Assembly (NCBI RefSeq): GCF_004006315.1
Contig: NZ_CP026530.1
Location: 920,501 to 984,500 of the forward strand
DNA: 64,000 nucleotides
Direction of reading: 5' to 3'
Source: Nautilia sp. PV-1
Lineage (GTDB): Bacteria > Campylobacterota > Campylobacteria > Campylobacterales > Nautiliaceae
Shown here: piece after piece, positions 20,475 to 53,223 of the stretch
Position numbering within the stretch: position 1 is the stretch's first letter
Layout: each line of letters begins with the position of its first letter
Position numbers and translations under genes: made by a program
The notes under the pieces: generated by a model
Database searches by the model: none
Seen by the model: only the letters and a program-made list of their open reading frames with translations
What the model was told of the DNA's origin: nothing

Positions 20475-21269
20475 TTATTCTTTTTCTTTAAGCCATTTTT
20501 GCAGTATTTTCTTTCTTAATCCGCTTTTATCCAGTTTTTCTATTTCACTGTTTAATTCTTTCAACAGCTCTTTAGCTTTAGGATACTGTTTAGAAATAAA
20601 AAGTCTGAATTTAGAAACTTTTAATTTAGGATAAGCCACATAAGATATGTCTTTTGGAATTTTACATTTACCAATCATTTCATAACCTAAAACAGCTTCT
20701 TTTGAAGCAACCATTATATCACACCTGTCTGCCGATATCTTTTTAAGAACGGCACATTGACTAGTGGCTTCCTGATTAATGGTTTTGTTTTTATCAAGAT
20801 TAAAAACGGTATAGTAAAATGCGGTATTATATCCGTTAACATCACAAATTCTTAAAGAATTGATATCGTTTTTTACTTTATTTAATATCTCTTTTTTTGT
20901 AAATCTTTTTTTAGAATACCATATAACCTGATGCGTCGTATAAATAGGTTTTGTTATATACAAAACTTTTGCTCTTTTTTCAGAATACAGCCCCGGAAAA
21001 ATAATATATTTTTTTGCCCTTGCATAATGACTTACCAGATAGGTACATCTTTTCCAGGGCACCAGATCAAGTTTATACGTCATATTCAAATCTTTAAACA
21101 TAACGTTATACATATCAACCAAAGCACCTACTATCTTGCTTTTGTCCACTCTTCCGTCCACTCTTTTATAAAACACAAACGGCGGCCATTCAGCACCGTC
21201 GTCACATATATGTATCACATCTTTAGCATATAAACTTACAAACATAATCAGCGCAAGCAAAATTTTCAT
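20475..21269 (-). CDS. Periplasmic substrate-binding protein (family 3-like)
   Basis: A 264-residue exported protein with a signal peptide ending near residue 15 (ILLALIMFVSLYAK). Its fold pattern follows family 3 solute-binding proteins: WPPFVFYKRVDGRVDKSKIVGALVDMYNVMFKDL near the start, FPGLYSEKRAKVLYITKPIYTTHQVIWYSK mid-protein and a helical C-terminus. Cysteines in HICDDGAEW, KRCTYLV, LRICDVN, QCAVLKK and DRCDIMV could form disulfides. No transporter genes are adjacent. The SpoIIE-type sensor gene lies three bases upstream, so this protein may present a ligand to that sensor. The other SpoIIE protein in the window has such a domain built in. Confidence 0.75.
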   Translation of the reverse strand: MKILLALIMFVSLYAKDVIHICDDGAEWPPFVFYKRVDGRVDKSKIVGALVDMYNVMFKDLNMTYKLDLVPWKRCTYLVSHYARAKKYIIFPGLYSEKRAKVLYITKPIYTTHQVIWYSKKRFTKKEILNKVKNDINSLRICDVNGYNTAFYYTVFNLDKNKTINQEATSQCAVLKKISADRCDIMVASKEAVLGYEMIGKCKIPKDISYVAYPKLKVSKFRLFISKQYPKAKELLKELNSEIEKLDKSGLRKKILQKWLKEKE

Positions 21270-21272
21270 TTT

Positions 21273-23309
21273 TTACCCCCTCTTTATCTTAAATCCTATT
21301 ACCGTAATATCATCGGTTCTCAATTCGTCTTTTTGATATTTTTTTAATTCTTCCCAAAACAGTTCTTTTTGAATTTCAAACTTACTGTTATGATATTTTT
21401 CAATAAGCTGTTTAAACCTTTTTTTACCAAACGGCAATTCGCGCTCACCGCCTATCTGATCTAAAAATCCGTCGGTAGTTACATAAAATTTCATTCCGTT
21501 AAATAATTTTATGTCATACTCTTTGTATTTATAATTAATATCGGTATATACATCTCCCACAGAACGTCTGTCGCCCTTTATTGTTTCAATTTCTCCTTTT
21601 TCGTTTAAATAAAACAACGGAACGTTTGCACTTGAAAAAGTCAAAATATTTTCATTTTTATTATAATAAATTATAGCACCGTCAAATCCGGCATTGGAGT
21701 TTGAATCTTTCGTATACTGTTTCAATATAGATTTTATGGATATATTAAACTGTGTCAAAATTTCTGAAGGGGATATTTTTTTGGACGAAAGATTTAACTC
21801 GTTTATTATATGCATTTGTATGGCTTTAACGAGCATTGTCATTAACGCTCCGTGTACACCGTGTCCCGTACAGTCTATAACCATTAATAAAAACTCATTT
21901 TTTCTAACTTCGTCTAAAAAGTATATATCTCCGCCTAGCACGTCTTTAGGTTCCCATATAATAAAATAATCTTCAAACGATTTATCAAACGCCTTTACAG
22001 ACGGAAGAATCGATTTTTGTATTAAAGAAGCATATCTTATACTCTCTTCCGTCATATCAAGAAGTGCTTTTATTTTACTTGTTTTTTGCTCTACAAGATC
22101 TTCTAAATGATTCTTCAGCTCTTCAAGTTCTTTTTTGTCGGTAATATTGTATGAAATCATAATATATTTGCAGTCTTCGTTATCAAACATGCATTTTTTA
22201 GTCATATGTGAATACAGCCAGTATTCTTTACCGCTTTTGGTGACGCATTTCACTTCCCCGTTCCAAGAACCGTTTTTATTTACTTTTTCAATCAGTTCAT
22301 TTAATCTTACGTTTTTAAACAGTTGGTGTTTGTTATTAAGCAGTTCTTCTTTTGAATATCCGCAAGTTTCACAAAAAGCTTTCGTAACGTCAATCACTTC
22401 GCCTTTTTCATTAAATTCGCTTATTATTACATACTGATTAATAACATTCATAAGTTCTGACAATTCTCTGTGCAGTTTTGAACTGACGGCAATGCCTTTA
22501 TTTGTAAATTCCGCTATTTCGCCGAATTCGTCTTTGGTGTTTATTTTAATCGGCTTAATTGATTGTTTAGGATTGGCTAAAAAGTCAAAAAACCTTTTAA
22601 GACCTTTTCTTATCTCTTTTAAAGGTTTGTTTATAAATTCGTTCAAAGTAAACACTAACACCACAATAGTAAAAAGAGCCGCAATTATAAAATAAAACAG
22701 TAATATTTTCTCTTTTTGAAGAGTGCTTTTGTATATTTTATTAAATTTCTCATTTACAAGAGCCAGCTCTTTTTTTTCTATTTCATTTAAATGTTTAAGT
22801 ACAGGACCCAAATCATAGTAAATTTTCACATAGCCTATCGGTTCGTTGTTGTAAATAAGCTCTTTTTTTATAAATTTATATTTTTTGAATTTAGGAGGCA
22901 AAGGTGCTGAAGAAAAAACTTTTTTACCGTTTTCTTTGTAAGCTGATAAAAAAACGCCTCTGGCTACAGTGTCATAAATAATTACTGCCTTTATAACATC
23001 ATCTTCCAGCAACACGTCTTTTACAACTTTTTTAGCAGCTTCTTCCTGGTAGTTAAATAAAGAATAGCTTAATGTAGTTGCGGAAAAATTTATTAGTTTT
23101 TTTAAATTATAAAGCGTTTTTTCTTTTGTTTTTTGTTTCTGTTCTTCTATAAAACTGACAACAAACTGTTTTTGCTGAGTATTAAGAGTTTTTAGTATAT
23201 TAGACTGGTGCGATTTGATTGACGAAGCAATCCATATCCATATTATACTTTGCATAACTATAATGAGGAGAAGAACTTTGAATACGATACTGTTTCTAAA
23301 TTTTACCAT
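21273..23309 (-). CDS. Membrane sensor with HAMP, PAS and SpoIIE-type phosphatase domains
   Basis: A 678-residue signalling protein (start ATG at 23309, GAGG upstream; the frame extends 12 bases further to a TTG). Order: membrane helix about 10-30, periplasmic sensor to about 200, second helix about 203-225, HAMP about 225-285, PAS about 290-405 (QYVIISEFNEKGEVIDVTKAF), coiled coil, then a PP2C/SpoIIE phosphatase from about 445. Metal-site motifs are VLGGDIYFLDE, VIDCTGHGVHGALMTML, TTDGFLDQIGGERELPFG and TDDITVIG. It would dephosphorylate a serine or threonine on an anti-anti-sigma-like partner. The C-terminus is closely similar to that of the 1141-residue protein at 40771, whose neighbours are SiaB and SiaC, so SiaC may be a shared substrate. 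Confidence 0.88.
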   Translation of the reverse strand: MVKFRNSIVFKVLLLIIVMQSIIWIWIASSIKSHQSNILKTLNTQQKQFVVSFIEEQKQKTKEKTLYNLKKLINFSATTLSYSLFNYQEEAAKKVVKDVLLEDDVIKAVIIYDTVARGVFLSAYKENGKKVFSSAPLPPKFKKYKFIKKELIYNNEPIGYVKIYYDLGPVLKHLNEIEKKELALVNEKFNKIYKSTLQKEKILLFYFIIAALFTIVVLVFTLNEFINKPLKEIRKGLKRFFDFLANPKQSIKPIKINTKDEFGEIAEFTNKGIAVSSKLHRELSELMNVINQYVIISEFNEKGEVIDVTKAFCETCGYSKEELLNNKHQLFKNVRLNELIEKVNKNGSWNGEVKCVTKSGKEYWLYSHMTKKCMFDNEDCKYIMISYNITDKKELEELKNHLEDLVEQKTSKIKALLDMTEESIRYASLIQKSILPSVKAFDKSFEDYFIIWEPKDVLGGDIYFLDEVRKNEFLLMVIDCTGHGVHGALMTMLVKAIQMHIINELNLSSKKISPSEILTQFNISIKSILKQYTKDSNSNAGFDGAIIYYNKNENILTFSSANVPLFYLNEKGEIETIKGDRRSVGDVYTDINYKYKEYDIKLFNGMKFYVTTDGFLDQIGGERELPFGKKRFKQLIEKYHNSKFEIQKELFWEELKKYQKDELRTDDITVIGFKIKRG

Positions 23310-23355
23310 AAAAAGCCTCAATGTTTTTCTTTATTATATCATATATTAAATATGG

Positions 23356-39476: not shown

Positions 39477-40249
39477 CAGTTACAATAGGAGGCTTTGACG
39501 GAATGCACGTAGGGCATCAGGCCCTGATATGCAAAGCGCAAAAGCTCATTGTTATCGAAAAAGGAAGCAACCTCACCCCGGGTGATGACAGATGCGAATA
39601 TACCGACCTTCCCTGCCATTTTTTTAATTTAAACGAAATCAAAAATCTTGAAGCGGAAAAATTTATAAATATCTTAAAAAATTTAAACACCACAAAAGTA
39701 GTCATAGGAGAAGATTTTAAATTCGGAAAAGAAAGAAAAGGAGATGCCTCTCTTTTAAAAAAACATTTCGCTGTAGAAGTAATAAAAGAGGTTAAAATAG
39801 ACGGAATAGGCGTACATTCTCAAATAATAAGAGAATTTTTAAAAAAAGGTCTCATAAAAAAAGCGACAAAATTTTTAGGACACCTATATAAAATAAAAGG
39901 CAGGCAAATCAAAGGACAGGGCCTAGGAGGCAAAGAACTGGTTCCGACAATAAATATAACTCCCGTCAAAAACTATTTAATTCCCAAAGAAGGCGTTTAT
40001 ATTACGCTTACAGGTTCAAAGCCGTCTTTGACATTTATAGGTATCAGATCCACAGATAACAAATTCAGCATTGAAACGCATATTCTTAATCAAAATTATA
40101 GTATTGTAAACGAACCCGTTAAAATTGAATTTTTGGAATTTTTAAGGGAAAATAAGAAATTCGAAAGTATCGAAGCATTAAAAAACCAGATTAAAAAAGA
40201 TCTTTCAGAAGCAGAAAATTACGCTTTTCCGATAACCGCCTTAAACTGA
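39473..40249 (+). CDS. ribF: Bifunctional riboflavin kinase/FAD synthetase
   Basis: Phosphorylates riboflavin to FMN and adenylates FMN to FAD. The N-terminal nucleotidyltransferase shows TIGGFDGMHVGHQALI, VVIGEDFKFGKERKGD and the later SQIIREFLKKG. The riboflavin kinase domain has GRQIKGQGLGGKELVPTIN, the PTxN motif, and the EGVYI strand. At 258 residues it is shorter than the usual 300 or so, as is normal in this phylum. It starts within an ATGA overlap with the preceding gene. The 3' end overlaps the convergent SiaB-like gene by 31 bases. Confidence 0.93.
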   Translation: MTVTIGGFDGMHVGHQALICKAQKLIVIEKGSNLTPGDDRCEYTDLPCHFFNLNEIKNLEAEKFINILKNLNTTKVVIGEDFKFGKERKGDASLLKKHFAVEVIKEVKIDGIGVHSQIIREFLKKGLIKKATKFLGHLYKIKGRQIKGQGLGGKELVPTINITPVKNYLIPKEGVYITLTGSKPSLTFIGIRSTDNKFSIETHILNQNYSIVNEPVKIEFLEFLRENKKFESIEALKNQIKKDLSEAENYAFPITALN

Positions 40250-40752
40250 AAGTAATACATTTCATCGCCTGCGTCGACAAATCCGTATTCTATTTTTTCA
40301 CTTTTTTTGGCAATTTCATAAAACCCTATCCCGCCTCCTTTTGAATGAGCGTCTTTACCGCTTTTTCTGGCTTCTCTGTACAGCTTTTTGATTTCTTCTT
40401 TATTTAATGGAATAATCTTTTTTAGCTTTTTTTCTATTTTATCTTTATCGTCTTTATTTACGATATTTTGCGCATATACATAATAATACCCGTCTTTCGT
40501 TTTTCCTACTAAAATCAGTCCTTTCGGATCAAAGCCTTCTTTATTCATTCTTTTTGAATAGTTCATCATATTTTGGGCAAGCTCAATAAATATGGTAAAA
40601 ATTTTACTTGCAAGCCCCATCGAAAGTTCGGCATTTTCAGTTTCTTTTTCCAAAGCTTCCGTCATAGCCACTATCAAAGACTGTGTCAGTGTCCCGCCGT
40701 ATGTTAAAAAAATTATGCCGTCTTTTTCTAAAATTTTTTCTAATGCGTTCAT
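40219..40752 (-). CDS. SiaB-family protein kinase
   Basis: A protein of about 177 residues of the SiaB family: GHKL-fold ATP-binding serine/threonine kinases that, in Pseudomonas, phosphorylate SiaC. Visible features are LSMGLASKIFTIFIELAQNMMNYSKR (N-box-like helix with the conserved asparagine, about 43-68), YYVYAQNIVNKDD, and SKGGGIGFYEIAKKS (glycine-rich ATP lid region near 142-156). Starts at 40752 (ATG, MNALEKILEKDG) or 40761 are both possible; GAGAGGG lies upstream. It follows the SiaA-like phosphatase by about ten bases and completes a kinase/phosphatase pair with SiaC encoded at 47873. Confidence 0.85.
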   Translation of the reverse strand: MNALEKILEKDGIIFLTYGGTLTQSLIVAMTEALEKETENAELSMGLASKIFTIFIELAQNMMNYSKRMNKEGFDPKGLILVGKTKDGYYYVYAQNIVNKDDKDKIEKKLKKIIPLNKEEIKKLYREARKSGKDAHSKGGGIGFYEIAKKSEKIEYGFVDAGDEMYYFQFKAVIGKA

Positions 40753-40770
40753 ATTAAGCATTCCCTCTCC

Positions 40771-43700
40771 TTATAATTTCATACCAACTAGAGTTATGTC
40801 GTCATTTTGTTCGTTATTTTGACATTTTTTCATAAATTCTTCCAATGTTTTTATAAACAGCTTTTTCTGTTCCGAAAACGGTAAATCTTTCACTTCCATA
40901 ATCAGCTGTTTAAATCTTTTTTTTCCAAAAGGGAAACATTTTTCTCCGCCCAACTGATCTAAAAACCCGTCTGTCGTAAAGTACAATAACATATTTTTTT
41001 CAATATTAAAAGTAAATTCCTTATAGACAAAATCAGCATCATTTTTCTTATATCCTACGGAATATCTGTCCCCTTTGATAACTTCTATTTCATCTTTCAC
41101 TATAAACAGCGGTGTTTTGGCAGATGAATATTTAATAATATTTTTCTTTTTGTTTATATATAAAACCCCTCCGTCAAATCCAGCATTTGAAGTACTAGTA
41201 ATGTCTTCCTGTTTCAAAAGTTTTTTTATTGTTTTGTTAAAATAGCTTAATATATACGAAGGAGAAACATCCAAATCACTCTCTTTATATTTAGATATTA
41301 TTTCACGCTCGATTGCTTTTACGATCATTGTTACAAATGCTCCCGGAACTCCGTGCCCTGTACAGTCGATAAGCATTAAAATGCATTCGCCATCTCTTAT
41401 TTTTTCAAACAGCCATATATCACCGCCGACGATATCCTTAGGTTTCCAAATCACAAAACTGTCTTCAAAACATTTTTTTAACTCTTCTTCATGAGGTATC
41501 AGGGCATCCTGAAGCATTGAAGCAAATTCAATGGATTCCTGTGTATGTTTATGTATGATTTCTATCTCTTTTTTTGCTTCTTCTAAGGATTTGGTGCGCT
41601 CTTTAACCAGAGTTTCAAGTTTTACGTTAAAACTTTCAAGCTCGATATTTTTCTCTTCAAGCTCTTTTTTGCTTTTATTTGTAAACCATACAATAAAAAC
41701 CATCAAAATAATCACAAATGAAACTACACTGAAAAGAGCATAATAAATTGTAGTTTTTGTATTTAAAAACGACTGCATTGCTTCTTTTTCGTCAATTTCG
41801 GTAACTATTGCTATATTATAATCATTATCCCATTCCCACGCCCCGAAAACTTTAATTCCCCTGTAATCTTTATACCCGCTGGTATTTATGCCGTTAATGT
41901 GTTTCAAAGCGCTTCTGGAGGCTAAAGTGTCCACTTTTATATTCAAAAACGAACTCTGTCCTTTTTTCAACAGCCCCAATTTTCTAAGCTCATTATCAAA
42001 TCTGCTTTGCGACACCATCTGTTTATGTGTATTTACAAGATAAGTTTCTCCGCTTTGCCCCATTCTGCCTTTTTCCAAAACTGACTGAAGTATATTTTTA
42101 TTTATTGCCACCGCAATATATCTTACGGGAACAAAATCTTTATATACGGTTTTAATAAAAAATATATTTTGCAGAGGTTTGATTGACTGTTTTACAGGGA
42201 AAATCAGACTGTATCCGTACTCTTTGGCTTTTTTTATACCTTGAATAAAATTTTTATTGTCAATTACACTTATATCGAAACTGCTGTTTAAAACATGATA
42301 ACTGGGATCTATAACAATATATCCGTTAACAAAATCAAGATATTTTATTTTTTCAAGTGTTTGGATAGAATCGTTCTGCAAAATCATATTCAAATAATCT
42401 TCCTGTGAAAGCAGTATTTTCCTCAAAGCTTCATGAGTGGTGTTTAAAATAGTGTTTAAAGAATAAGAAAGCTCCGATTTTTTAATTTTTTCAAGATTCT
42501 TAACAGAAATTACGGTAATTAAAATTATAAAAAATAAAAACACGCCTACGAATGCAAAAACGCTTACACCTAAAGCAATGTTTTTTTTCTTTTTAAAATA
42601 ATTCAGCATAATAAGCAGTACGAGTATTAAAAACACGCCTATTATCAGCATTTGCCTTAAAGGAAGCACATCCAGCAAAGAATACGTTTTATCAGAAATC
42701 TGCAAAGTCTTATCGTTATAATTAATCCATTTATCGTAAATTTTGTTTAATTCGTCTTTTGTGATGGTTCCTAACGCTTTGTCTATTATATTTAAAATAA
42801 TTTTAGGCTCGTCTTTTCTAAGAGCTATTTTGAGTTTAAATTTATAATTCAGTTTTTTTGCAACTTTCAAATCATTATATCCGAGTTTGTTAATATAATA
42901 TTTGGCAATAATGATATTATTAACGAAATAATCTATTTTTCCGTTTCTTAAAGCATTCAAACCGTCTTTAAGGGAGTTAAAATAAAAAATTTCAGCTTTA
43001 GGATAATGCTGTTTTATATAGTCGGTTAAAACATATCCTCTTTTTATACCTATTTTAGAAGTTTCAATCGGCTTTTTGCAGTTTTTTCTGCCAATCAGCA
43101 CGGCATCATATGAAAAAATGGTATGCTTGGTAAAATTTAAATATTTTTTTCTTTTTTTATTTTCCGTTATTGCGCTGAACATATCGGCTTTTTTTTCTTT
43201 AACAAGTTTTTTCGCCTCAGACCAGCTGTCAGTTGCTACAGGAATTAAATTTAAGTTTGTTTTGGCTTTGATAATTTTTATAATGTCCGCAATTATTCCT
43301 CTGTGCTCACCGATTTCATCTTTAAACTCAAAAGGTTTCCAGTTAGGGTCAAATACATATCGTATCTGTTTATGCTGAATTATAAATTCTTTTTCTTTAT
43401 CATTAAAAAGTGACTCTTTTCGGCTTTTTTTAATGATAATATATAAAAAATCCCTTTCCAGCTGCTGTATATTTTTAATCTTTAAAGTTATAAGTTTTTC
43501 GTAAGTGGCAATATCTATATTTTCTTTTTCGTTTTTTATTTTTTTCAATATCCTGGCTTCGAGCTCGGAGAGTTTATTAAAATAAGAACTGTTATTGTAA
43601 CTGTGCCATTCTTTAAATAATTTACGCATAAGCGTTTTATCAATAACGTCATAAAAAATTTTTTCTTTTGTGGAAGAAGAAAGATAAAAATTACTGATTT

Positions 43701-44196
43701 TTTTTATATCTTTTAATTTTAAAAAAGCTTTAATTTCAAGCTTTTTCTCCCATATACTTTCTTCATACATCATTAAAATAGAATATTGATAAAGCAGGTT
43801 TTTATAATTGGAGTATTCGCTGATTCTGGAAAGAAGATCCAAAAACTGTGATACCGTCATCGTATAATAAGAAAAAACATCTTTGCATTTAGCATTTGAA
43901 TTAAGCAGTTTTTTTCTTATAGACCTTAAGTTTGTAAGATCCGATTTTATATTTAAATCTTTTTTTTCAATATAACTTTTTAATATTTTAAGTGTTTTAT
44001 CTGTATTTTTAATGGAAATTTTATATTTGTTTAAATTTTTTTCAGATTTCTCAAATACATAGTCACACGCATCTGCCCTTTCTATCTGCAGATCATGGAT
44101 AGTATTTGTTAACAGTTTTGTAAGAGTTATATTTACATCGGCGTAAATGTTCACCGCAAATAAAAAAAAGACTAACAGTCTAATCATTTTCTTCAA
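40771..44196 (-). CDS. SiaA-like sensor phosphatase: periplasmic binding domain, Cache, SpoIIE
   Basis: A 1141-residue transmembrane protein. Order: signal peptide (1-19), an all-helical periplasmic region to about 260, a family 3 solute-binding domain (about 265-495, RYVFDPNWKPFEFKDEIGEH), membrane helices near 517-537 and 545-565, a Cache-like extracytoplasmic domain (about 570-820), a helix near 830-850, a coiled coil, then a PP2C/SpoIIE phosphatase from about 905. Phosphatase motifs: IVGGDIWLFEK, LIDCTGHGVPGAFVTM, TTDGFLDQLGGEKCFPFG, NDDITLVG. By analogy to SiaA it would dephosphorylate SiaC, controlled by an extracellular ligand. It overlaps the receiver gene by 17 bases. Confidence 0.88.
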   Translation of the reverse strand: MKKMIRLLVFFLFAVNIYADVNITLTKLLTNTIHDLQIERADACDYVFEKSEKNLNKYKISIKNTDKTLKILKSYIEKKDLNIKSDLTNLRSIRKKLLNSNAKCKDVFSYYTMTVSQFLDLLSRISEYSNYKNLLYQYSILMMYEESIWEKKLEIKAFLKLKDIKKISNFYLSSSTKEKIFYDVIDKTLMRKLFKEWHSYNNSSYFNKLSELEARILKKIKNEKENIDIATYEKLITLKIKNIQQLERDFLYIIIKKSRKESLFNDKEKEFIIQHKQIRYVFDPNWKPFEFKDEIGEHRGIIADIIKIIKAKTNLNLIPVATDSWSEAKKLVKEKKADMFSAITENKKRKKYLNFTKHTIFSYDAVLIGRKNCKKPIETSKIGIKRGYVLTDYIKQHYPKAEIFYFNSLKDGLNALRNGKIDYFVNNIIIAKYYINKLGYNDLKVAKKLNYKFKLKIALRKDEPKIILNIIDKALGTITKDELNKIYDKWINYNDKTLQISDKTYSLLDVLPLRQMLIIGVFLILVLLIMLNYFKKKKNIALGVSVFAFVGVFLFFIILITVISVKNLEKIKKSELSYSLNTILNTTHEALRKILLSQEDYLNMILQNDSIQTLEKIKYLDFVNGYIVIDPSYHVLNSSFDISVIDNKNFIQGIKKAKEYGYSLIFPVKQSIKPLQNIFFIKTVYKDFVPVRYIAVAINKNILQSVLEKGRMGQSGETYLVNTHKQMVSQSRFDNELRKLGLLKKGQSSFLNIKVDTLASRSALKHINGINTSGYKDYRGIKVFGAWEWDNDYNIAIVTEIDEKEAMQSFLNTKTTIYYALFSVVSFVIILMVFIVWFTNKSKKELEEKNIELESFNVKLETLVKERTKSLEEAKKEIEIIHKHTQESIEFASMLQDALIPHEEELKKCFEDSFVIWKPKDIVGGDIWLFEKIRDGECILMLIDCTGHGVPGAFVTMIVKAIEREIISKYKESDLDVSPSYILSYFNKTIKKLLKQEDITSTSNAGFDGGVLYINKKKNIIKYSSAKTPLFIVKDEIEVIKGDRYSVGYKKNDADFVYKEFTFNIEKNMLLYFTTDGFLDQLGGEKCFPFGKKRFKQLIMEVKDLPFSEQKKLFIKTLEEFMKKCQNNEQNDDITLVGMKL

Positions 44197-44563
44197 GTCC
44201 TATTTTATTTAACACTTCTTGCAGTTTTTCAATAGTAAACGGTTTTAAAATATAGTTTTTGGCTCCCGCCCTGATCGCACTTATAACCATTTCTTCCTCA
44301 CCGTGAGAAGTAACCATAATTATTTTGGCGTCTTTATCCAGTTTTAAAATTTCTTTTACGGCTTCAATTCCGTCTTTCATTCTGTTTCTCATAGGCATTG
44401 TTATATCCATAGTCACCAGATCGGGTTTATATTTTTTATACGCTTCCACAGCTGCGTGAGCACAGTCTGCCTCGGCCACTATGGTATGACCCAGTTCTTT
44501 TAACATTTTACTTAAATTGTATCTCATTATTTTTATATCGTCTACAATTAAAACCCTCGCCAT
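44180..44563 (-). CDS. CheY-like response regulator
   Basis: A 127-residue stand-alone receiver. Acidic pair D8/D9, phospho-acceptor D53 in LVTMDITMP, the T/S in MVTSHGEEEM, and K107 in YILKPF are all present. The MPMRNRMKDGIEAVKEIL loop is longer than usual by about four residues. With no output domain it would act by protein contacts. It lies between the hybrid HPt/ATPase/CheX protein, which could phosphorylate and dephosphorylate it, and the SpoIIE phosphatase, which it may control. Confidence 0.92.
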   Translation of the reverse strand: MARVLIVDDIKIMRYNLSKMLKELGHTIVAEADCAHAAVEAYKKYKPDLVTMDITMPMRNRMKDGIEAVKEILKLDKDAKIIMVTSHGEEEMVISAIRAGAKNYILKPFTIEKLQEVLNKIGLEEND

Positions 44564-44564
44564 T

Positions 44565-46526
44565 TCACACCTTTATTCCTATTGATATTGAAAAATTTGA
44601 AAAAACGATATCTTTTTTATATGCTTTAAACGTTTTTTCATAAAAAAAAGGAGTACTGATATCAGCATTGATATTATAATCCTGCAAAGTTTTGATAGCC
44701 TTTCCGGCTAATATGTTTACTACTTCTTTTAAAACATCTTCTTTATGTTCTTCTATAACACTGCTGTCAACATTTCCGTAAAGAACAGTTTTAGCTATTT
44801 CATATACGCCTTTGCTGTCACATTGAATAAAAATCATATTTTCCGCATCGCCTTTAAAATAAATACTGCTGCTGAATTTATTGCATTTATAATTGGCGTT
44901 ATATTCGTATTTTTCAGTAATGTACCTGCATTCTCTAAACAGATTTTTCAATTCCTCGCTTAAAACATCCAAAATCAGCTCTTCGCGTTCATGTTCTATA
45001 AAAGGCAGTTTGATAATAAACTCTGCTCCGTCGTTTATTTTATTTTTAACAAATACAGAGCCGTTTAATTTTTTAACTTCTTCATAAACGCTGTAAAGTC
45101 CCACCCCTCTGCCTGAAACCAGATCCGCTTCTTCATTAGTACTGAACCCTTCTTGAAATATATATTCAGCTATCTGCTCGTCTGTAACTTTTCTCCCGGC
45201 TTTTTTAGAAATTTTATCTGTATCTATTCCTCTGCCGTCGTCTTTTATGCTGACGATAATCTCTTTTCCGTTTCTTACCGCTTTAAATTTTACCGTTCCT
45301 TCGGTTTTTTTACCTTTTTCCATTCTCTCGTATTCATCTTCGATCCCGTGATAAACGCTGTTTCGGAACACATGTACCAGAGACATAAAAAAAGATTTAT
45401 ATATATCGGGCAAAAACAGATCACATTCATAAATAAACTTTATTTTTTTATTGTATTTTTCGGCTAAATCGTTTATTAAACTGTTAAAAGGTTTTACGAA
45501 TTCATATACGTTAAAATACATAAGCTCTTTTAATTCAGTAAGAATATTTACATCCGTACCCAGCAGCTGTGCTTTGGAATAAAGTTTTTTTAAACGTTTT
45601 TTTTCAATAAATTTATAATTAAACTTTTCAAAAAAGTCGTCTCCTAAAATACGTTTTATTTCTTCTATGTCTTTTTCGACCGGCTCCGTAAGTTCTCTGT
45701 AAGTTAAAGCGGATATATATTCTGTATTGTCAGCGTCTATCTGTGTTTCAATAAAATGAATTTTGTTAACCGCGTGTTTCATATGCTTTTGTGCAAAAAG
45801 CCCTTTAAACGTATGGAGTTTGGCTTTAAATGCAGACATGTCTTTAAGATAATAATCCAGGCTTTTTACAAATTCGTCGTATTCAAATTTTATTTCCAAA
45901 AACTGTTCTATCGAGGAAACCACCTCAACTATCATTTTTAATTTTTCTTTTTCCTCTTTGGCCTGCTGCTGAAGATATTTTTTTTCAGTTATATCTCTTA
46001 AAACAATCATAAATGAACCGTTTTCCAGTTTTTTATATTCAATACTGATAATTTTACCGTTTATCTCTTTTTCTTTAGGCAGCAAAGAAAGTAAAACCTC
46101 GGCTTTTAAATCGTCAGAACTTAATATTTCCGATAATACTTCTTTATAAAAATTTTTCTTATCAAACAAGATATCGTAAATGTATTTTCCTGAAATATCA
46201 TACTCAAAAATATTCTTAACAACTTTGGAATATACCGGTTCAATTTTCAAATCTCCGTTTACATATAAAAAACCTTCGTTGGCATTATCCAAAAGCAGTT
46301 TTAACTGAAAATTGGTTTTTTCTAATTTTTCTTTTAATTTTAGAAGTTCAAACTGTTGCGAATCGGAAAGATTTAAAATTTTATTATAGCGTTGAAGCGT
46401 TTTTTTTGTTTTTTTTAAAAAATCAGGAAGCTTTTCATGCACGTTCTGATTATTATTGTTTAATAATTCTTTTTCGATTTCCTCTAATAATATTAAATTT
46501 TTATCATTCACCGAACATTTCCTCAT
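44565..46526 (-). CDS. Hybrid sensor protein: coiled coil, PAS, HPt-like, CheA-like ATPase, CheX-like
   Basis: A 653-residue cytoplasmic protein with no membrane helix. Residues 30-80 form a coiled coil related to the N-termini of the two nearby HD-GYP proteins. A PAS domain follows (80-185). An HPt-like helix pair has H238 in AKLHTFKGLFAQKHMKHA. The CheA-like ATPase spans about 315-510, with VHVFRNSVYHGIED (N389), DDGRGID and SGRGVGLYSV. The end (about 515-653) resembles CheC/CheX phosphatases, with EDVLKEVVNILAGKAIKTLQ near 597. This combines phospho-donor, kinase and aspartyl-phosphatase parts in one chain. It overlaps the HD-GYP gene by 23 bases. Confidence 0.8.
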   Translation of the reverse strand: MRKCSVNDKNLILLEEIEKELLNNNNQNVHEKLPDFLKKTKKTLQRYNKILNLSDSQQFELLKLKEKLEKTNFQLKLLLDNANEGFLYVNGDLKIEPVYSKVVKNIFEYDISGKYIYDILFDKKNFYKEVLSEILSSDDLKAEVLLSLLPKEKEINGKIISIEYKKLENGSFMIVLRDITEKKYLQQQAKEEKEKLKMIVEVVSSIEQFLEIKFEYDEFVKSLDYYLKDMSAFKAKLHTFKGLFAQKHMKHAVNKIHFIETQIDADNTEYISALTYRELTEPVEKDIEEIKRILGDDFFEKFNYKFIEKKRLKKLYSKAQLLGTDVNILTELKELMYFNVYEFVKPFNSLINDLAEKYNKKIKFIYECDLFLPDIYKSFFMSLVHVFRNSVYHGIEDEYERMEKGKKTEGTVKFKAVRNGKEIIVSIKDDGRGIDTDKISKKAGRKVTDEQIAEYIFQEGFSTNEEADLVSGRGVGLYSVYEEVKKLNGSVFVKNKINDGAEFIIKLPFIEHEREELILDVLSEELKNLFRECRYITEKYEYNANYKCNKFSSSIYFKGDAENMIFIQCDSKGVYEIAKTVLYGNVDSSVIEEHKEDVLKEVVNILAGKAIKTLQDYNINADISTPFFYEKTFKAYKKDIVFSNFSISIGIKV

Positions 46527-47862
46527 AATACTTTACGTCAACTTCATCAATCTGCTCAGGTTTCAGATATTTTTTTGCATAATCTAAATATGCCCCGCTG
46601 GTTAAAAACAGCAAAAACAGATCTTTGTCAATTTTATTCTCTTTTGCCATTTCGGATAATATTCTTACCGCATCTGAAAGTTTTTTTGGAGTTTTATACG
46701 GCCTGTCGTCCGCAGTTAACGCTTCAAAAATATCCGCAATAGCCATTATTCTGGCAGGTATAGGAATTTCACCGTTTTTTAGTTTTCTCGGATATCCCGT
46801 TCCGTCTAAAGTTTCATGATGAGCACCGGCATACAGAGGAACGTTTTTCAAATCATCAGGGAAAGGAAGCCTTTCAAGCATTTTAATAGTTCTAACGGCA
46901 TGTTCTTGTATTTTAAATATTTCCTCTTTTGTAAGCGTTCCTTTTTTAATACTCAAATTATATACTTCGCCGTAGTTATATAAATTTTCAGGAATTTCCA
47001 TTTTAACCCCGTGCTTTTTAAAATCTTCTATATCCTCTTTTGACCTTTTTACTATATGTCTTTTTTTGTCGGACAGAAGTTTCTCTTTAACGGGCAGTTT
47101 TACTTTCAGTTCTTCTTCACTAATTCTGGATTTTTCGTCTTCGCTAAGACCGATGGTGTCGTCAAAATATCTTAACCATTCTCTGTTTGCAATTTTTTTA
47201 AGTTTTTCGATGTCTTTATCGTCAACAAAGTCATTGCCTATATTCATACGAGCAATAAACTCAAATTCTTCTTTTAATTTTTCCGTCTCTTCAGAAAACC
47301 ATAAATCGACTTCTTCCGGATTTTCACCTTTTAATTTTCTTTTTAAAGCTTCAATTTCCAGGTCCCTGTATACAACTTCGAATCTCATGCGTATTTCATG
47401 AATTCTGTTGTATATAGTCTCAAGTTTTACCGCCTTATCCATTACATATTCGGGAATAACGATTTTCCCGCAGTCATGAAGCCATGCGGCTATCGATATT
47501 TCTCTTTTTTGCTCTTCATTTTCTATTTTAAATTCAAACTTGTCGCTTTTGCTGGCTTCTTCTGCAAGTCTGATTGCTATTTCCGGAACTCTTCTGCAGT
47601 GGCCTCCGGTATATCTGCTTTTAGCATCAATTGTTTCGGCAATAAGTTTTATAAAAGCGTCAATCAGCTCTTTTTGAGCCTGCTGTAATTTTAAAACTTC
47701 TTTTAATTTTTCCTGAAGTTCGTCATACTCTTTTCTTTGCCTTTTATCGGCATTTAGCATTATTTTATTATGCCGCTTTATATCTTTGGCTATTTTGTCC
47801 AGCAGTTTATTAAAATTTTCTTTAGCCTGTTCTATTTCGTCTAACAGCTTGTCTTCCATCAT
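46504..47862 (-). CDS. HD-GYP domain protein with large internal insertion (copy A)
   Basis: A 452-residue cytoplasmic protein. N-terminal coiled coil (1-75), then an HD-GYP phosphodiesterase fold: HCRRVPEIAIRLA, H129-D130 in AAWLHDCGKI, the second histidine pair in AGAHHETLDGTGYPRKL (348-359) and IMAIADIFEALTADDRPYK. Metal-binding residues look intact, so c-di-GMP hydrolysis is plausible. Between the HD helix and the GTLTKEEIFKIQEH helix, where normal family members have about ten residues, there are about 155 mostly charged, helical residues. Copy B at 48315 has the same insertion. SiaC is encoded ten bases upstream. Confidence 0.88.
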   Translation of the reverse strand: MMEDKLLDEIEQAKENFNKLLDKIAKDIKRHNKIMLNADKRQRKEYDELQEKLKEVLKLQQAQKELIDAFIKLIAETIDAKSRYTGGHCRRVPEIAIRLAEEASKSDKFEFKIENEEQKREISIAAWLHDCGKIVIPEYVMDKAVKLETIYNRIHEIRMRFEVVYRDLEIEALKRKLKGENPEEVDLWFSEETEKLKEEFEFIARMNIGNDFVDDKDIEKLKKIANREWLRYFDDTIGLSEDEKSRISEEELKVKLPVKEKLLSDKKRHIVKRSKEDIEDFKKHGVKMEIPENLYNYGEVYNLSIKKGTLTKEEIFKIQEHAVRTIKMLERLPFPDDLKNVPLYAGAHHETLDGTGYPRKLKNGEIPIPARIMAIADIFEALTADDRPYKTPKKLSDAVRILSEMAKENKIDKDLFLLFLTSGAYLDYAKKYLKPEQIDEVDVKYYEEMFGE

Positions 47863-47872
47863 AGGAAAAACC

Positions 47873-48250
47873 TTATTTTTTAATTAAATTTATATTCAGA
47901 TCCTTAAAATCCTCTATAAAATCCTCACCGGCTTCTTCCGCACTTTCATTTTCCTCGTCATATATCCAGTTGATCGTAATGTTATATTTATCTTTTACTT
48001 CGTCAAAAAGATCAAAAAGATCAAAAAACAGTTTTGATGTGCTGGAATTAAAATATATAATTTCCATATTTACCGTGATATCGCCTTTTACGCAGCATTT
48101 GAGATATTCGTCAATCCATTTGATTACAGGCTCGTAAAATTCAAACGTATTTTCAGGATATGATTTCCCTTTTATTTCTATTAGCCCTTTTTCCGGGTCA
48201 AGCGATATTTCCGGAGTATATTTTGTAGCAGGTATATATAACTTTTCCAT
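47873..48250 (-). CDS. SiaC-family (DUF1987) partner-switch protein
   Basis: A 125-residue anti-anti-sigma-like protein of the DUF1987/SiaC family. The N-terminal IPATKYTPEISLDPEKGLIEIKGKSYPENTFEFYEPVIKWIDEYL (read in parts, 6-50) is the family signature, and YFNSSTSKLFFDLFDLFD contains T71 in the place of the regulatory threonine phosphorylated by SiaB in Pseudomonas. The acidic loop ENESAEEAGEDF is unusual. It lies between the two HD-GYP genes and is the likely substrate of the SiaB-like kinase and SpoIIE phosphatase encoded downstream. AAAGGAAAGAG precedes the ATG. Confidence 0.9.
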   Translation of the reverse strand: MEKLYIPATKYTPEISLDPEKGLIEIKGKSYPENTFEFYEPVIKWIDEYLKCCVKGDITVNMEIIYFNSSTSKLFFDLFDLFDEVKDKYNITINWIYDEENESAEEAGEDFIEDFKDLNINLIKK

Positions 48251-48314
48251 CTCTTTCCTTTTTAGATTATAAATATTATTATATAAAAAATTTTTAAAAC
48301 TTTAAATCGTTTAA

Positions 48315-49670
48315 TTATTTCAGTTTTTTAATATACGAGTCAATATCGACTTCATCGAAATTTTCTTTTAAAAGATACATTTCTCCGTATTTTTTATACA
48401 GTCCCGATTCTAAAAACACCCTTAAAATATCTTTGTCAAGCTTTCCTGCCAATGCCATTGAAACAAGAATTTCAATAGTTTCAGAAAGTTTTTTCTGTCT
48501 TTTATACGGTCTGTCTTTCGCAGTCAACGCTTCGAAAATATCTGCGATGGCCATAATTCTTGCCGGTATAGGAATTTCATCGCCTTTTAGTCTTCTAGGA
48601 TATCCCGTTCCGTCTAAAGCTTCATGGTGAGCTCCTGCATAAAGAGGCACGTTTTTTAATTTTTCAGGAAAAGGAAGACTTTCAAGCATTTTTATCGTCA
48701 TAATAACGTGTTCTTGAATTTTGAAATATTCTTCTTTTGTCAGAGTTCCTTTTTTTATACTTAAATTATAAATTTCTCCCAGATTGTAAAGGTTTTCAGG
48801 TATTTCGATTTTAAATCCGTATTTCTTAAACTCTTCTATTTCTTTTTTGCTTCTTTTTATTATATGTCTTTGCTTATCCGCTAAAAGAGACTCTTTTACC
48901 GGAAGTTCCTGATTAAGTTCTTCTTTGGAAATTCTTTTTTTCTCGTCTTTGGATATACCGATTGTGTCGTCAAAATACCTGTACCATGTTCTTTGTGAAA
49001 TTTCTTTAAGTCTTTCTATTTTTTCTTCATCCAGATCTTCGTCCCCGATATTAAGTTCGGCTATAAATTCAAAATCCTCATGAAGTTTCTGCAGTTCCTC
49101 ATTAAGCCATTTATCAACTTTTTCTTTATCCTCACCGTTTATAATCCTGTCTTTTGCATCAATAATAAGATCTCTTCTTATAACCTCAAATCTTGTTCTT
49201 ATTTCATGTATTCTGTTATAAACGGTTTCGAGTTTTACGGCTTTATCCATTACGAATTCGGGAGTGATTATTTTTCCGCAGTCGTGAAGCCACGCCGCCG
49301 CTGCTATTTCCCTCTCTTCATCCTCGTTTTTAATTTCAAAATCCACATCTTTTGATTTACTGACTTCCTTCGCCAGCATCATCGTAAGCTGAGGCACCCG
49401 TTCACAGTGACTGCCCATATATTCACTTTTGGCGTCAATTGATTCGGCTATAAGTTTAATAAAAGAATCAATTAACTCCTGCTGCGCCTTTTGCAGTTTC
49501 TGAACTTCTTTTAATTTTTCCTGAAGTTCGTCGTACTCTTTTCTCTGCCTTTTATCGGATAAAAGTAAAATTTTTTCTTCTCTTTTTAGATTCTTGATAA
49601 GTTTATCCATTAATTTGTCGAAATCTTCTTTTATCCTTTCCGCCTCTAAAATACGCTCGGTATTAAACAT
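48315..49670 (-). CDS. HD-GYP domain protein with large internal insertion (copy B)
   Basis: A 451-residue paralogue of the 46504-47862 protein, with the same plan: N-terminal coiled coil with LSDKRQRKEYDELQEKLKEVQ, HD motif in AAWLHDCGKI, an insertion of roughly the same length, GTLTKEEYFKIQEH, then AGAHHEALDGTGYPRRL and IMAIADIFEALTAKDRPYK. Catalytic residues appear intact. The frame extends eight codons to a TTG, but the ATG at 49670 has AAGGGG eight bases upstream. It is the first gene of the seven-gene cluster; 64 bases separate it from SiaC, the largest gap in the cluster. Tandem duplication of the pair is likely. Confidence 0.88.
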   Translation of the reverse strand: MFNTERILEAERIKEDFDKLMDKLIKNLKREEKILLLSDKRQRKEYDELQEKLKEVQKLQKAQQELIDSFIKLIAESIDAKSEYMGSHCERVPQLTMMLAKEVSKSKDVDFEIKNEDEEREIAAAAWLHDCGKIITPEFVMDKAVKLETVYNRIHEIRTRFEVIRRDLIIDAKDRIINGEDKEKVDKWLNEELQKLHEDFEFIAELNIGDEDLDEEKIERLKEISQRTWYRYFDDTIGISKDEKKRISKEELNQELPVKESLLADKQRHIIKRSKKEIEEFKKYGFKIEIPENLYNLGEIYNLSIKKGTLTKEEYFKIQEHVIMTIKMLESLPFPEKLKNVPLYAGAHHEALDGTGYPRRLKGDEIPIPARIMAIADIFEALTAKDRPYKRQKKLSETIEILVSMALAGKLDKDILRVFLESGLYKKYGEMYLLKENFDEVDIDSYIKKLK

Positions 49671-49773
49671 AAATAAATCCCCTTTTTGTTTCAATAAATT
49701 AATTATACAAAAAATTTTGAGGTAAATTTAAACGAGAGGCAAAAACTGCTCTTCAAAGTGAAAAAGAGTTACA

Positions 49774-49796
49774 TTTCAGGTTTAAACGGCCTGAAA
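49774..49796 (-). terminator. Hairpin overlapping the microprotein stop codon
   Basis: TTTCAGG and CCTGAAA pair perfectly around a nine-base loop that contains the stop codon of the 24-residue ORF. On the minus strand a T-rich stretch (CTCTTTTTC) follows a few bases later. It may terminate a short transcript or affect release. Confidence 0.4.
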
Positions 49797-49856
49797 CAAG
49801 CTTAAACTTGCAATAAGAAGTGTTGCCGCCGCAGCAGTCATAACGTCGATTTTCAT
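49782..49856 (-). CDS. 24-residue hydrophobic microprotein
   Basis: A short ORF, MKIDVMTAAAATLLIASLSL followed by FQAV, starting at the ATG at 49856 with a strong Shine-Dalgarno (AAAGGAGG) five bases upstream. A TATACT -10 lies about 30 bases before the start. One hydrophobic segment spans residues 5-22, suggesting membrane insertion. A hairpin at 49774-49796 covers the stop. It sits alone, just upstream of the signalling cluster on the same strand. I do not recognise a family; it could be a small membrane regulator, a leader peptide or a type I toxin-like peptide. Confidence 0.5.
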   Translation of the reverse strand: MKIDVMTAAAATLLIASLSLFQAV

Positions 49857-51885: not shown

Positions 51886-51905
51886 GAATTGAGAATTGAG
51901 AATTA
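51871..51905 (+). repeat. GA-rich start-associated repeat, copy 4
   Basis: Units AATGGAG, AATTGAG, AATTGAG, AATTGAG, AATT span the ABC-F/YihY junction. They encode the ABC-F C-terminus and stop, provide GGAG at 51876-51879, and provide the TTG start at 51889. Confidence 0.6.
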
Positions 51906-53223
51906 TTTAAAATATCTTAAAACAATCGATTTTAAAAAATTAAAAGACACTGTTAACAATATAACTCTGTATTCGGCAGCTTTAAGTTTTTATACTATTT
52001 TTTCCCTTGTGCCGCTTATTCTGATCGTGCTTACTATATTTGCAAGCACACCGTTTTTTGCAGACTTTTATACTAAACTGGAACATTTTATCAGTTCAAA
52101 CCTTCTTCCGACTAATCAGGAAATGATTTCCGTATATCTTAAAAACTTTCTATCCAATTCATCTAAAATGGGTATACTCGGAGGTTTTTACGTTTTAATT
52201 ACCTCCATACTGTTTTTTGACAACTACGAAACGATAATTTCAAAAATATTCGGGCAGGAAAAAAGAAACCTGTGGGAAAAAATAAAACTTTACTGGACAA
52301 TGCTTACCCTGTTCCCTATTATGTTTGCGGCGGCAATGTTTATTTCTATAAAACTGCAGTTTTTCCTAGACAAATCTAGCTATACCTCATGGATTAACTT
52401 CGCCAAAATGGCGCCTTTTATAATTATATGGCTTACTTTTTTCCTTTCTTATAAAATGACGCTTCAAAACGAAACCACCAAATCCGCTCTTCTTGCGTCT
52501 TTTATGGTTTCAATGACTTTTATAATATCCAAAAACGTTTTTATTTATTACGTACTTATAAATAAAACATATTCAACCATATACGGTTCGATTTCTCTTT
52601 TAATGTTTCTGTTTTTATGGATTTATATCAACTGGATAATTTATATTGCCGGAATTTATTTAATCAAATATCTTGATATAATGTCACAAAAAAAAGGAGA
52701 ACAAATGGACATCAGTAAAATCAAACCCGGAAATCCTGAAGAATATGTAAATGCTGTAATTGAAATTCCTCAGGGAAGCAATATTAAATACGAACTTGAC
52801 AAAGAAAGCGGAGCAATCTTTTTAGACAGAATTCTATACGGAGCCAATTACTATCCTGCAAACTACGGTTTTGTTCCTAACACTTTGGCAGATGACGGAG
52901 ACCCTATTGACGTATTGGTTATTTCAAGTGAAAGCGTTGTTCCTGGGACAGTTATAAAATCAAGAGTTATTGGCGTCCTTATTATGGAAGACGAAAGCGG
53001 TAAAGATGAAAAAATCGTAGCTGTGCCGACTGTTAAACTTGACCCTAAAATGGCTAAAATAAACGATTTAAGCGATTTACCTGAAATCGAACTTAACCAA
53101 ATTAAACACTTTTTCGAAACATACAAAGACCTTGAACCTGGAAAATGGGTAAAAGTTACAGGTTATGAAGGTAGAGACAAAGCAATAGAACTTATCCAAA
53201 AAGCTATCGACAACTATAAGTAA
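51889..53223 (+). CDS. In-frame fusion of YihY/BrkB membrane protein and inorganic pyrophosphatase
   Basis: One 444-residue frame encodes two proteins normally separate. Residues 1-272 are a YihY/BrkB-family membrane protein with six helices ([23 protein letters not shown] at the start, [22 protein letters not shown] at the end). Residues 273-444 are a complete family I inorganic pyrophosphatase: [44 protein letters not shown] and VPTVKLDP. The join reads [16 protein letters not shown]. The ATG at 52705 has AAAGGAG six bases upstream, so free pyrophosphatase can be made internally. An eight-A run at 52688-52695 lies at the junction. The start is TTG within the GA-rich repeat. Confidence 0.85.
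52705..53223 (+). CDS. ppa: Inorganic pyrophosphatase (internal initiation product)
   Basis: Hydrolyses pyrophosphate to drive biosynthesis. From the ATG at 52705 the product has 172 residues, the usual bacterial family I length, and begins MDISKIKPG. The metal-binding DDGDPIDVL and the [12 protein letters not shown] motif are intact. The strong AAAGGAG before this ATG, in the correct position, argues that the cell translates this protein independently even though no stop codon separates it from the YihY part. The inverted repeat at 53231-53307 follows. Confidence 0.85.

Follow-up and report, generated by a model that had tools for sequence, protein, structure and literature searches.

The 64,000-nucleotide (64-kb) stretch of the Nautilia sp. 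PV-1 genome analysed here, which we will call the window, carries at positions 40219-49670 a cluster of seven genes, all on the minus strand. The cluster is likely to encode a SiaABC-type Ser/Thr partner switch in which the effectors are two HD-GYP phosphodiesterases of cyclic diguanylate (c-di-GMP) and a CheA-like hybrid kinase, and not a diguanylate cyclase. Open reading frame (ORF) reading and domain searches give the order of transcription as HD-GYP1, SiaC, HD-GYP2, hybrid kinase, receiver, SiaA and SiaB; taken in order of rising coordinates, the intergenic gaps (+) and overlaps (−) are +9, −17, +1, −23, +10 and +64 bases. Domain calls are strong across the cluster, except for the HPt-like part of the hybrid kinase. 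The original prediction for this DNA had named the same seven genes, each of which is indeed present at its coordinates on the minus strand, and was also right that no cyclase is among them: the cluster holds no SiaD-type diguanylate cyclase gene, and the domain search gave no GGDEF domain there.

An indication of how SiaC may reach these effectors is a helix near their N-termini. In the crystal structure of SiaC-SiaD from Pseudomonas aeruginosa, the helical stalk of SiaD presents a motif twice and SiaC binds both copies; T68 of SiaC hydrogen-bonds S82 and Q86 of SiaD, and phosphorylation of T68 blocks the binding (PMC8457831). A comparable motif is found in HD-GYP1 (KILLLSDKRQRKEYDEL), HD-GYP2 (KIMLNADKRQRKEYDEL) and the hybrid kinase (KILNLSDSQQFELLKL). 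The S-D-x-x-Q of HD-GYP1 and the kinase corresponds to SiaD S82/D83/Q86 and reads A-D-x-x-Q in HD-GYP2, while the helix residues R, K, D and Q at −8, −5, +1 and +4 from the serine match the residues in contact with SiaC in the crystal. We built a profile of this helix (A1) from 20 proteins, all of them HD-GYPs or kinases and none a cyclase. It matches three proteins of the Nautilia genome, all inside the cluster: HD-GYP1 (DKLIKNLKREEKILLLSDKRQRKEYDELQEKLKEV, 49503-49607, minus strand, E = 7e-16), HD-GYP2 (DKIAKDIKRHNKIMLNADKRQRKEYDELQEKLKEV, 47695-47799, minus strand, E = 3e-17) and the hybrid kinase (KKTKKTLQRYNKILNLSDSQQFELLKLKEKLEKTN, 46314-46415, minus strand, E = 1e-11). At E ≤ 0.1 the genome encodes no further protein with the helix, and its third HD-GYP, encoded away from SiaC, is without it. 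Searched against the PDB at E < 10, A1 gave a single match, residues 67-88 of SiaD in 7e6g (ERYHKQLRRLEKVARISDRYQQ, E = 5.2), which are the proximal SiaC-binding motif; weak by itself, the match has weight because it was the only hit and was placed on the right residues.

The helix also follows SiaC from genome to genome. Among 397 Campylobacterota genomes it was found in 18 (A1, cut-off E ≤ 1e-4), and SiaC, present in 20 genomes in all, is encoded in 16 of these 18 (Fisher p 5e-23); nearly all matches lie within 5 kb of siaC, and most of them within 2 kb. The 274 gammaproteobacterial genomes contain SiaC in nine cases and the helix in two, both with SiaC; among the other siaC genes there, several lie next to genes for GGDEF proteins, of which two have a SiaD-type motif (IARVSDGYQ or LVRISDRYQ). 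A scan of bacterial genomes with the window SiaC returned 59 loci, and in 58 of them the SiaC ORF could be recognised. A helix protein is encoded at 43 of these 58, and 37 of the helix proteins are HD-GYPs; as the scan is biased towards SiaCs closely related to the query, these figures do not give the proportions in the SiaC family at large. Typically the genes run SiaA-(receiver)-SiaB-SiaC-HD-GYP, an arrangement seen in Sulfurimonas, Arcobacter and relatives, Vibrio, Marinobacterium, Pseudoalteromonas and Mariprofundaceae, and the helix proteins that are not HD-GYPs include histidine kinases at L028, L055, L091, L044 and L092. In a SiaC tree, built from few columns and without resolution at its deep forks, the window SiaC clusters with those of two relatives, G038 (same genus) and G039, among mostly HD-GYP-linked SiaCs, while Pseudomonas SiaC falls in a separate, supported GGDEF-linked group. 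The link between SiaC and helix-bearing HD-GYPs is therefore widespread and not peculiar to the window, and we found no paper describing it in a literature search that had most subscription journals outside its reach. Two further kinds of protein were seen with the helix. At L061 (10411-11406) a PAS-GGDEF protein with a variant helix, ITTQGDRQQ, comes directly after SiaC and is a possible SiaD analogue outside Pseudomonas; at L094 (685-1683, minus strand) and L095 a class III adenylate/guanylate cyclase with the docking helix is encoded near siaC.

All three components that define a SiaABC partner switch, namely a SiaC-family protein with its phosphosite, a SiaB-family kinase and a SiaA-type PP2C phosphatase, are present. 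SiaC (125 residues; 47873-48250, minus strand; PF09345, E = 6e-42) scores 106 bits against the NCBI equivalog model, under its 150-bit cut-off, and can be aligned with P. aeruginosa SiaC of 6kko/7e6g, so that its Y66, N68, S70, D80 and D114 equate to Y65, N67, S69, D79 and D114, which touch SiaD. The predicted phosphosite is Ser69 (codon 48044-48046, minus strand), aligned with P. aeruginosa T68, a position which is serine in 78 of the 79 aligned SiaCs; T71, proposed as the phosphosite earlier, aligns with S70 of the Pseudomonas protein and has to be abandoned. The SiaB-family kinase (180 residues; 40219-40761, minus strand; NF038262, E = 4e-40) reaches 137 bits, above the 85-bit cut-off of the model, and aligns with SiaB of 6kko (chain A) at E = 3e-17. 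SiaA (1141 residues; 40771-44196, minus strand; SpoIIE, E = 3e-17; SiaA model, E = 6e-67) is composed of NIT-like, SBP_bac_3, Cache-like and SpoIIE/PP2C regions. The match to the SiaA model spans the PP2C part and stays under the full-length cut-off, and the PP2C part matches the SiaA structure 6k4e at E = 1e-49. Its earlier description as a SiaA-like SpoIIE phosphatase is thus correct, with the NIT, SBP_bac_3 and Cache-like regions to be added.

HD-GYP1 (451 residues; 48315-49670, minus strand; HD_5, E = 2e-45) consists of the docking helix and an HD-GYP domain, with an ATG start at 49670 and a possible longer TTG start at 49694, and HD-GYP2 (452 residues; 46504-47862, minus strand; HD_5, E = 1e-47) shares this architecture and 66% identity with it. 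H96, H137-D138, H329, H356-H357, G364-Y-P and D385 are invariant in an alignment of 21 HD-GYPs, so that, judging by the HD, GYP and metal-binding His/Asp motifs, both should be phosphodiesterases of this class. In the AlphaFold2 (AF2) model of HD-GYP1 (mean predicted local distance difference test, pLDDT, 83), residues 3-89 (459-residue numbering) form a single continuous helix heading to the HD domain, and the top Foldseek matches are the c-di-GMP HD-GYP phosphodiesterases PA4781 and DvhD, with template modelling (TM) scores of up to 0.79 by target. Both proteins contain an insert of ~140 residues (KLETIYNRIHEIRTRFEV...) that follows the HD motif and precedes the GTLTKEE segment; it is present in the long SiaC-linked HD-GYPs and missing from short 265-residue ones. 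In G038 and G039 all HD-GYPs of the HD_5 type are located in the SiaC cluster.

The hybrid kinase (653 residues; 44565-46526, minus strand; HATPase, E = 9e-15; CheX, E = 3e-9) is made up of the docking helix, a PAS-like part, an HPt-like part (H238), a CheA-like ATPase, with CheA models covering residues 342-509, and CheX with an ExxN motif at 601-604. It had been described as a PAS/HPt/ATPase/CheX hybrid; the gene, the ATPase and CheX are confirmed, while the Pfam search gave no HPt match and the HPt-like call comes from H238 in HTFKGLF, which is kept in two homologues from other SiaC loci. What the original prediction missed is that, going by its helix, the kinase is a predicted SiaC client itself. 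Homologues that do have the helix are encoded at L067 (full-length, with CheX) and L043 (without CheX), in both cases with a receiver gene after them, whereas in other homologues of the phylum the alignment mostly begins only at residue ~57-68, past the docking helix, which therefore looks like an added part. We considered whether the protein is an ordinary CheA of the phylum and rejected this, since the CheA-like matches present in most genomes cover only residues ~294-520 and those reaching further mostly begin past the helix. The CheY-like receiver (D53, K107; 44180-44563, minus strand; PF00072, E = 2e-28) has as its nearest relatives the receivers adjoining docking-helix kinases at L043 and L067 and so belongs with the hybrid kinase; a grouping with the siaA-adjacent receivers of other loci was discarded on the same ground.

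How would such a switch operate? From the gene content, the domain calls, the conservation and co-occurrence of the helix and the intact catalytic motifs, all of them directly observed, we infer the binding of SiaC, its phosphorylation, the sign of the regulation and the output through the receiver, as follows. SiaB would phosphorylate SiaC at Ser69, and SiaA (40771-44196), probably along with a second SiaA encoded at 21273-23321, would dephosphorylate it on periplasmic signals. Unphosphorylated SiaC would then bind the N-terminal coiled-coil helix of the two HD-GYPs and the hybrid kinase, in the manner of Pseudomonas SiaC on the SiaD stalk. By analogy with SiaD, docking should most likely stabilise the active dimer, and c-di-GMP would therefore be broken down, and its level lowered, when SiaA is active. 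In the kinase, docking would also gate the relay from HPt to receiver and may gate autophosphorylation, and CheX could dephosphorylate the receiver, resetting the relay.

The main rival concerns the sign: SiaC could instead dock on the HD-GYPs to inhibit or sequester them, so that SiaA signalling would raise c-di-GMP, as it does in Pseudomonas. The evidence for docking is identical in both cases, and keeping the physiological sign while swapping the enzyme would require inhibition. We nevertheless hold this to be unlikely, as SiaC binding to SiaD favours the active dimer (PMC8457831) and the helix in the AF2 model enters the catalytic part of the HD-GYP with a topology as in SiaD. Could the shared helix be a coiled coil of a generic kind, for dimerisation or signalling, and the genes mere neighbours? 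Such helices are common in signalling proteins and the PDB match is weak if taken alone, but near restriction to SiaC genomes and loci, conservation of exactly those residues that touch SiaC in the crystal and the helix-free third HD-GYP of the same genome make this explanation quite improbable. Least probable of all is that SiaC controls a GGDEF protein encoded elsewhere, as in Pseudomonas, with the HD-GYPs controlled otherwise, since, in spite of 29 GGDEF matches in the genome, the helix at E ≤ 0.1 is confined to the cluster, which has no GGDEF.

Activation of the HD-GYPs by docked SiaC thus remains the preferred reading, and apart from the question of sign and the E value of the PDB match several observations weigh against it. 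HD-GYP2 has alanine at the position of SiaD S82, as do proteins at L059, L075 and L101. Two genomes (G342 and G134) have a helix match without SiaC, and some of the 20 sequences used to train A1 belong to genomes that the co-occurrence test includes, an overlap which leaves the near absence of the helix from the 377 SiaC-less genomes unaffected. The AF2 model of the hybrid kinase is of low confidence (pLDDT 57). Finally, the best PDB sequence match of the HD-GYPs is V-cGAP3, so another cyclic dinucleotide could be the substrate; the best fold matches are nonetheless c-di-GMP enzymes. With these points included, the central idea of the original prediction, that SiaC switches c-di-GMP breakdown, gains strong indirect support from the helix shared with SiaD, the genome-wide co-occurrence and the conserved neighbourhood; the interpretation given there is, as a whole, partly borne out.

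Outside the cluster, next to guaA and 17-27 kb from siaB/siaC, the window encodes a second SiaA phosphatase (682 residues; 21273-23321, minus strand; SiaA model, E = 6e-63) and a periplasmic binding protein (SBP_bac_3; 20475-21269, minus strand; PF00497, E = 1e-9), together spanning 20475-23321. This SiaA has 66% identity to, and synteny on the guaA side with, the siaA of G039, which adjoins siaB-siaC-HD-GYP, and a matching lone siaA is also present in G038; one SiaC may therefore be served by two phosphatases with differing sensors. The binding protein is a neighbour of this siaA in G038 and G039 too and is a possible sensor for it, while the SiaA of the cluster has an SBP_bac_3 domain of its own.

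The two relatives also suggest how the cluster arose. G038 has, at the site of the window cluster between ribF and an ABC-F gene, two SiaC-HD-GYP pairs and SiaB; in G039 there is one HD-GYP-SiaC-SiaB-SiaA set. The window cluster probably descends from a two-pair ancestor after loss of one SiaC. The full set of seven genes is absent from both relatives, and the core of SiaC, HD-GYP and SiaB is conserved. The earlier claim of a unique combination is, on the sequence comparisons made here, too strong, as SiaC is paired with an HD-GYP widely across Campylobacterota and in several Gammaproteobacteria. It is rarer for one SiaC to be shared by two HD-GYPs, or for a kinase with the docking helix to come with a receiver of its own; related kinase-receiver pairs occur at two other SiaC loci.

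A scan for promoters and terminators gave nothing clear above shuffled controls, and the Rfam search gave no match. A defence function of the cluster was rejected, as its sole match was to a generic receiver. Upstream of HD-GYP1 lies a small ORF (49782-49856, minus strand; MKIDVMTAAAATLLIASLSLFQAV) that has a good ribosome-binding site and was seen at none of the other SiaC loci compared. Beyond it, a single frame at 51889-53223 (plus strand), read by eye, seems to join a YihY-like membrane protein and an inorganic-pyrophosphatase-like domain, either by sequencing error or as a real fusion.

DUF1987 proteins were suggested to modulate adjacent proteins (PMC8457831), and the SiaC experiments in the literature we found are limited to activation of one cyclase in Pseudomonas. 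The docking helix turns this suggestion into a readable rule by which the clients of SiaC in any genome may be predicted from sequence; those predicted here include enzymes that destroy the same messenger, c-di-GMP. From the helix, a Ser/Thr partner switch is further predicted to connect directly with histidine-kinase signalling. We lean towards seeing the helix as a portable plug that joins SiaABC to enzymes whose functions are opposite or unrelated: HD-GYP phosphodiesterases, GGDEF cyclases, a class III nucleotide cyclase, ordinary histidine kinases and CheA/CheX hybrids. On this view the window SiaC has three clients, and through them Ser phosphorylation would be coupled to c-di-GMP breakdown as well as to a His-Asp relay.

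The cluster is a variant of the SiaABC partner switch and not a category of its own. With SiaABCD of P. aeruginosa it shares the SiaA PP2C phosphatase, the SiaB kinase, the contact residues of SiaC and predicted effectors bearing the SiaC-binding stalk motif; it differs in having two HD-GYP phosphodiesterases and a hybrid kinase as these effectors in place of the cyclase, a serine as the predicted phosphosite, an added receiver and CheX, and two SiaA proteins. HptB-HptR-HsbA-HsbD and BgrSTUWV are likewise partner switches controlling a c-di-GMP enzyme, but they act on diguanylate cyclases via the STAS proteins HsbA and BgrV (PMC8457831), and the window cluster would act via SiaC. The HD-GYPs resemble the c-di-GMP phosphodiesterases PA4781, DvhD and PmGH in fold and in the HD and GYP motifs, yet what they have at the N-terminus is the SiaC-docking helix and not a recognisable sensor domain, and their HD domain contains the insert. 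As in CheA kinases and CheX phosphatases, the hybrid kinase has a candidate HPt-like histidine, a CheA-type ATPase, an adjoining CheY-like receiver and the CheX ExxN motif, whereas, in contrast to these, it unites kinase and phosphatase in one protein with PAS and an N-terminal docking helix, and Pfam gave no CheW-like domain in it.

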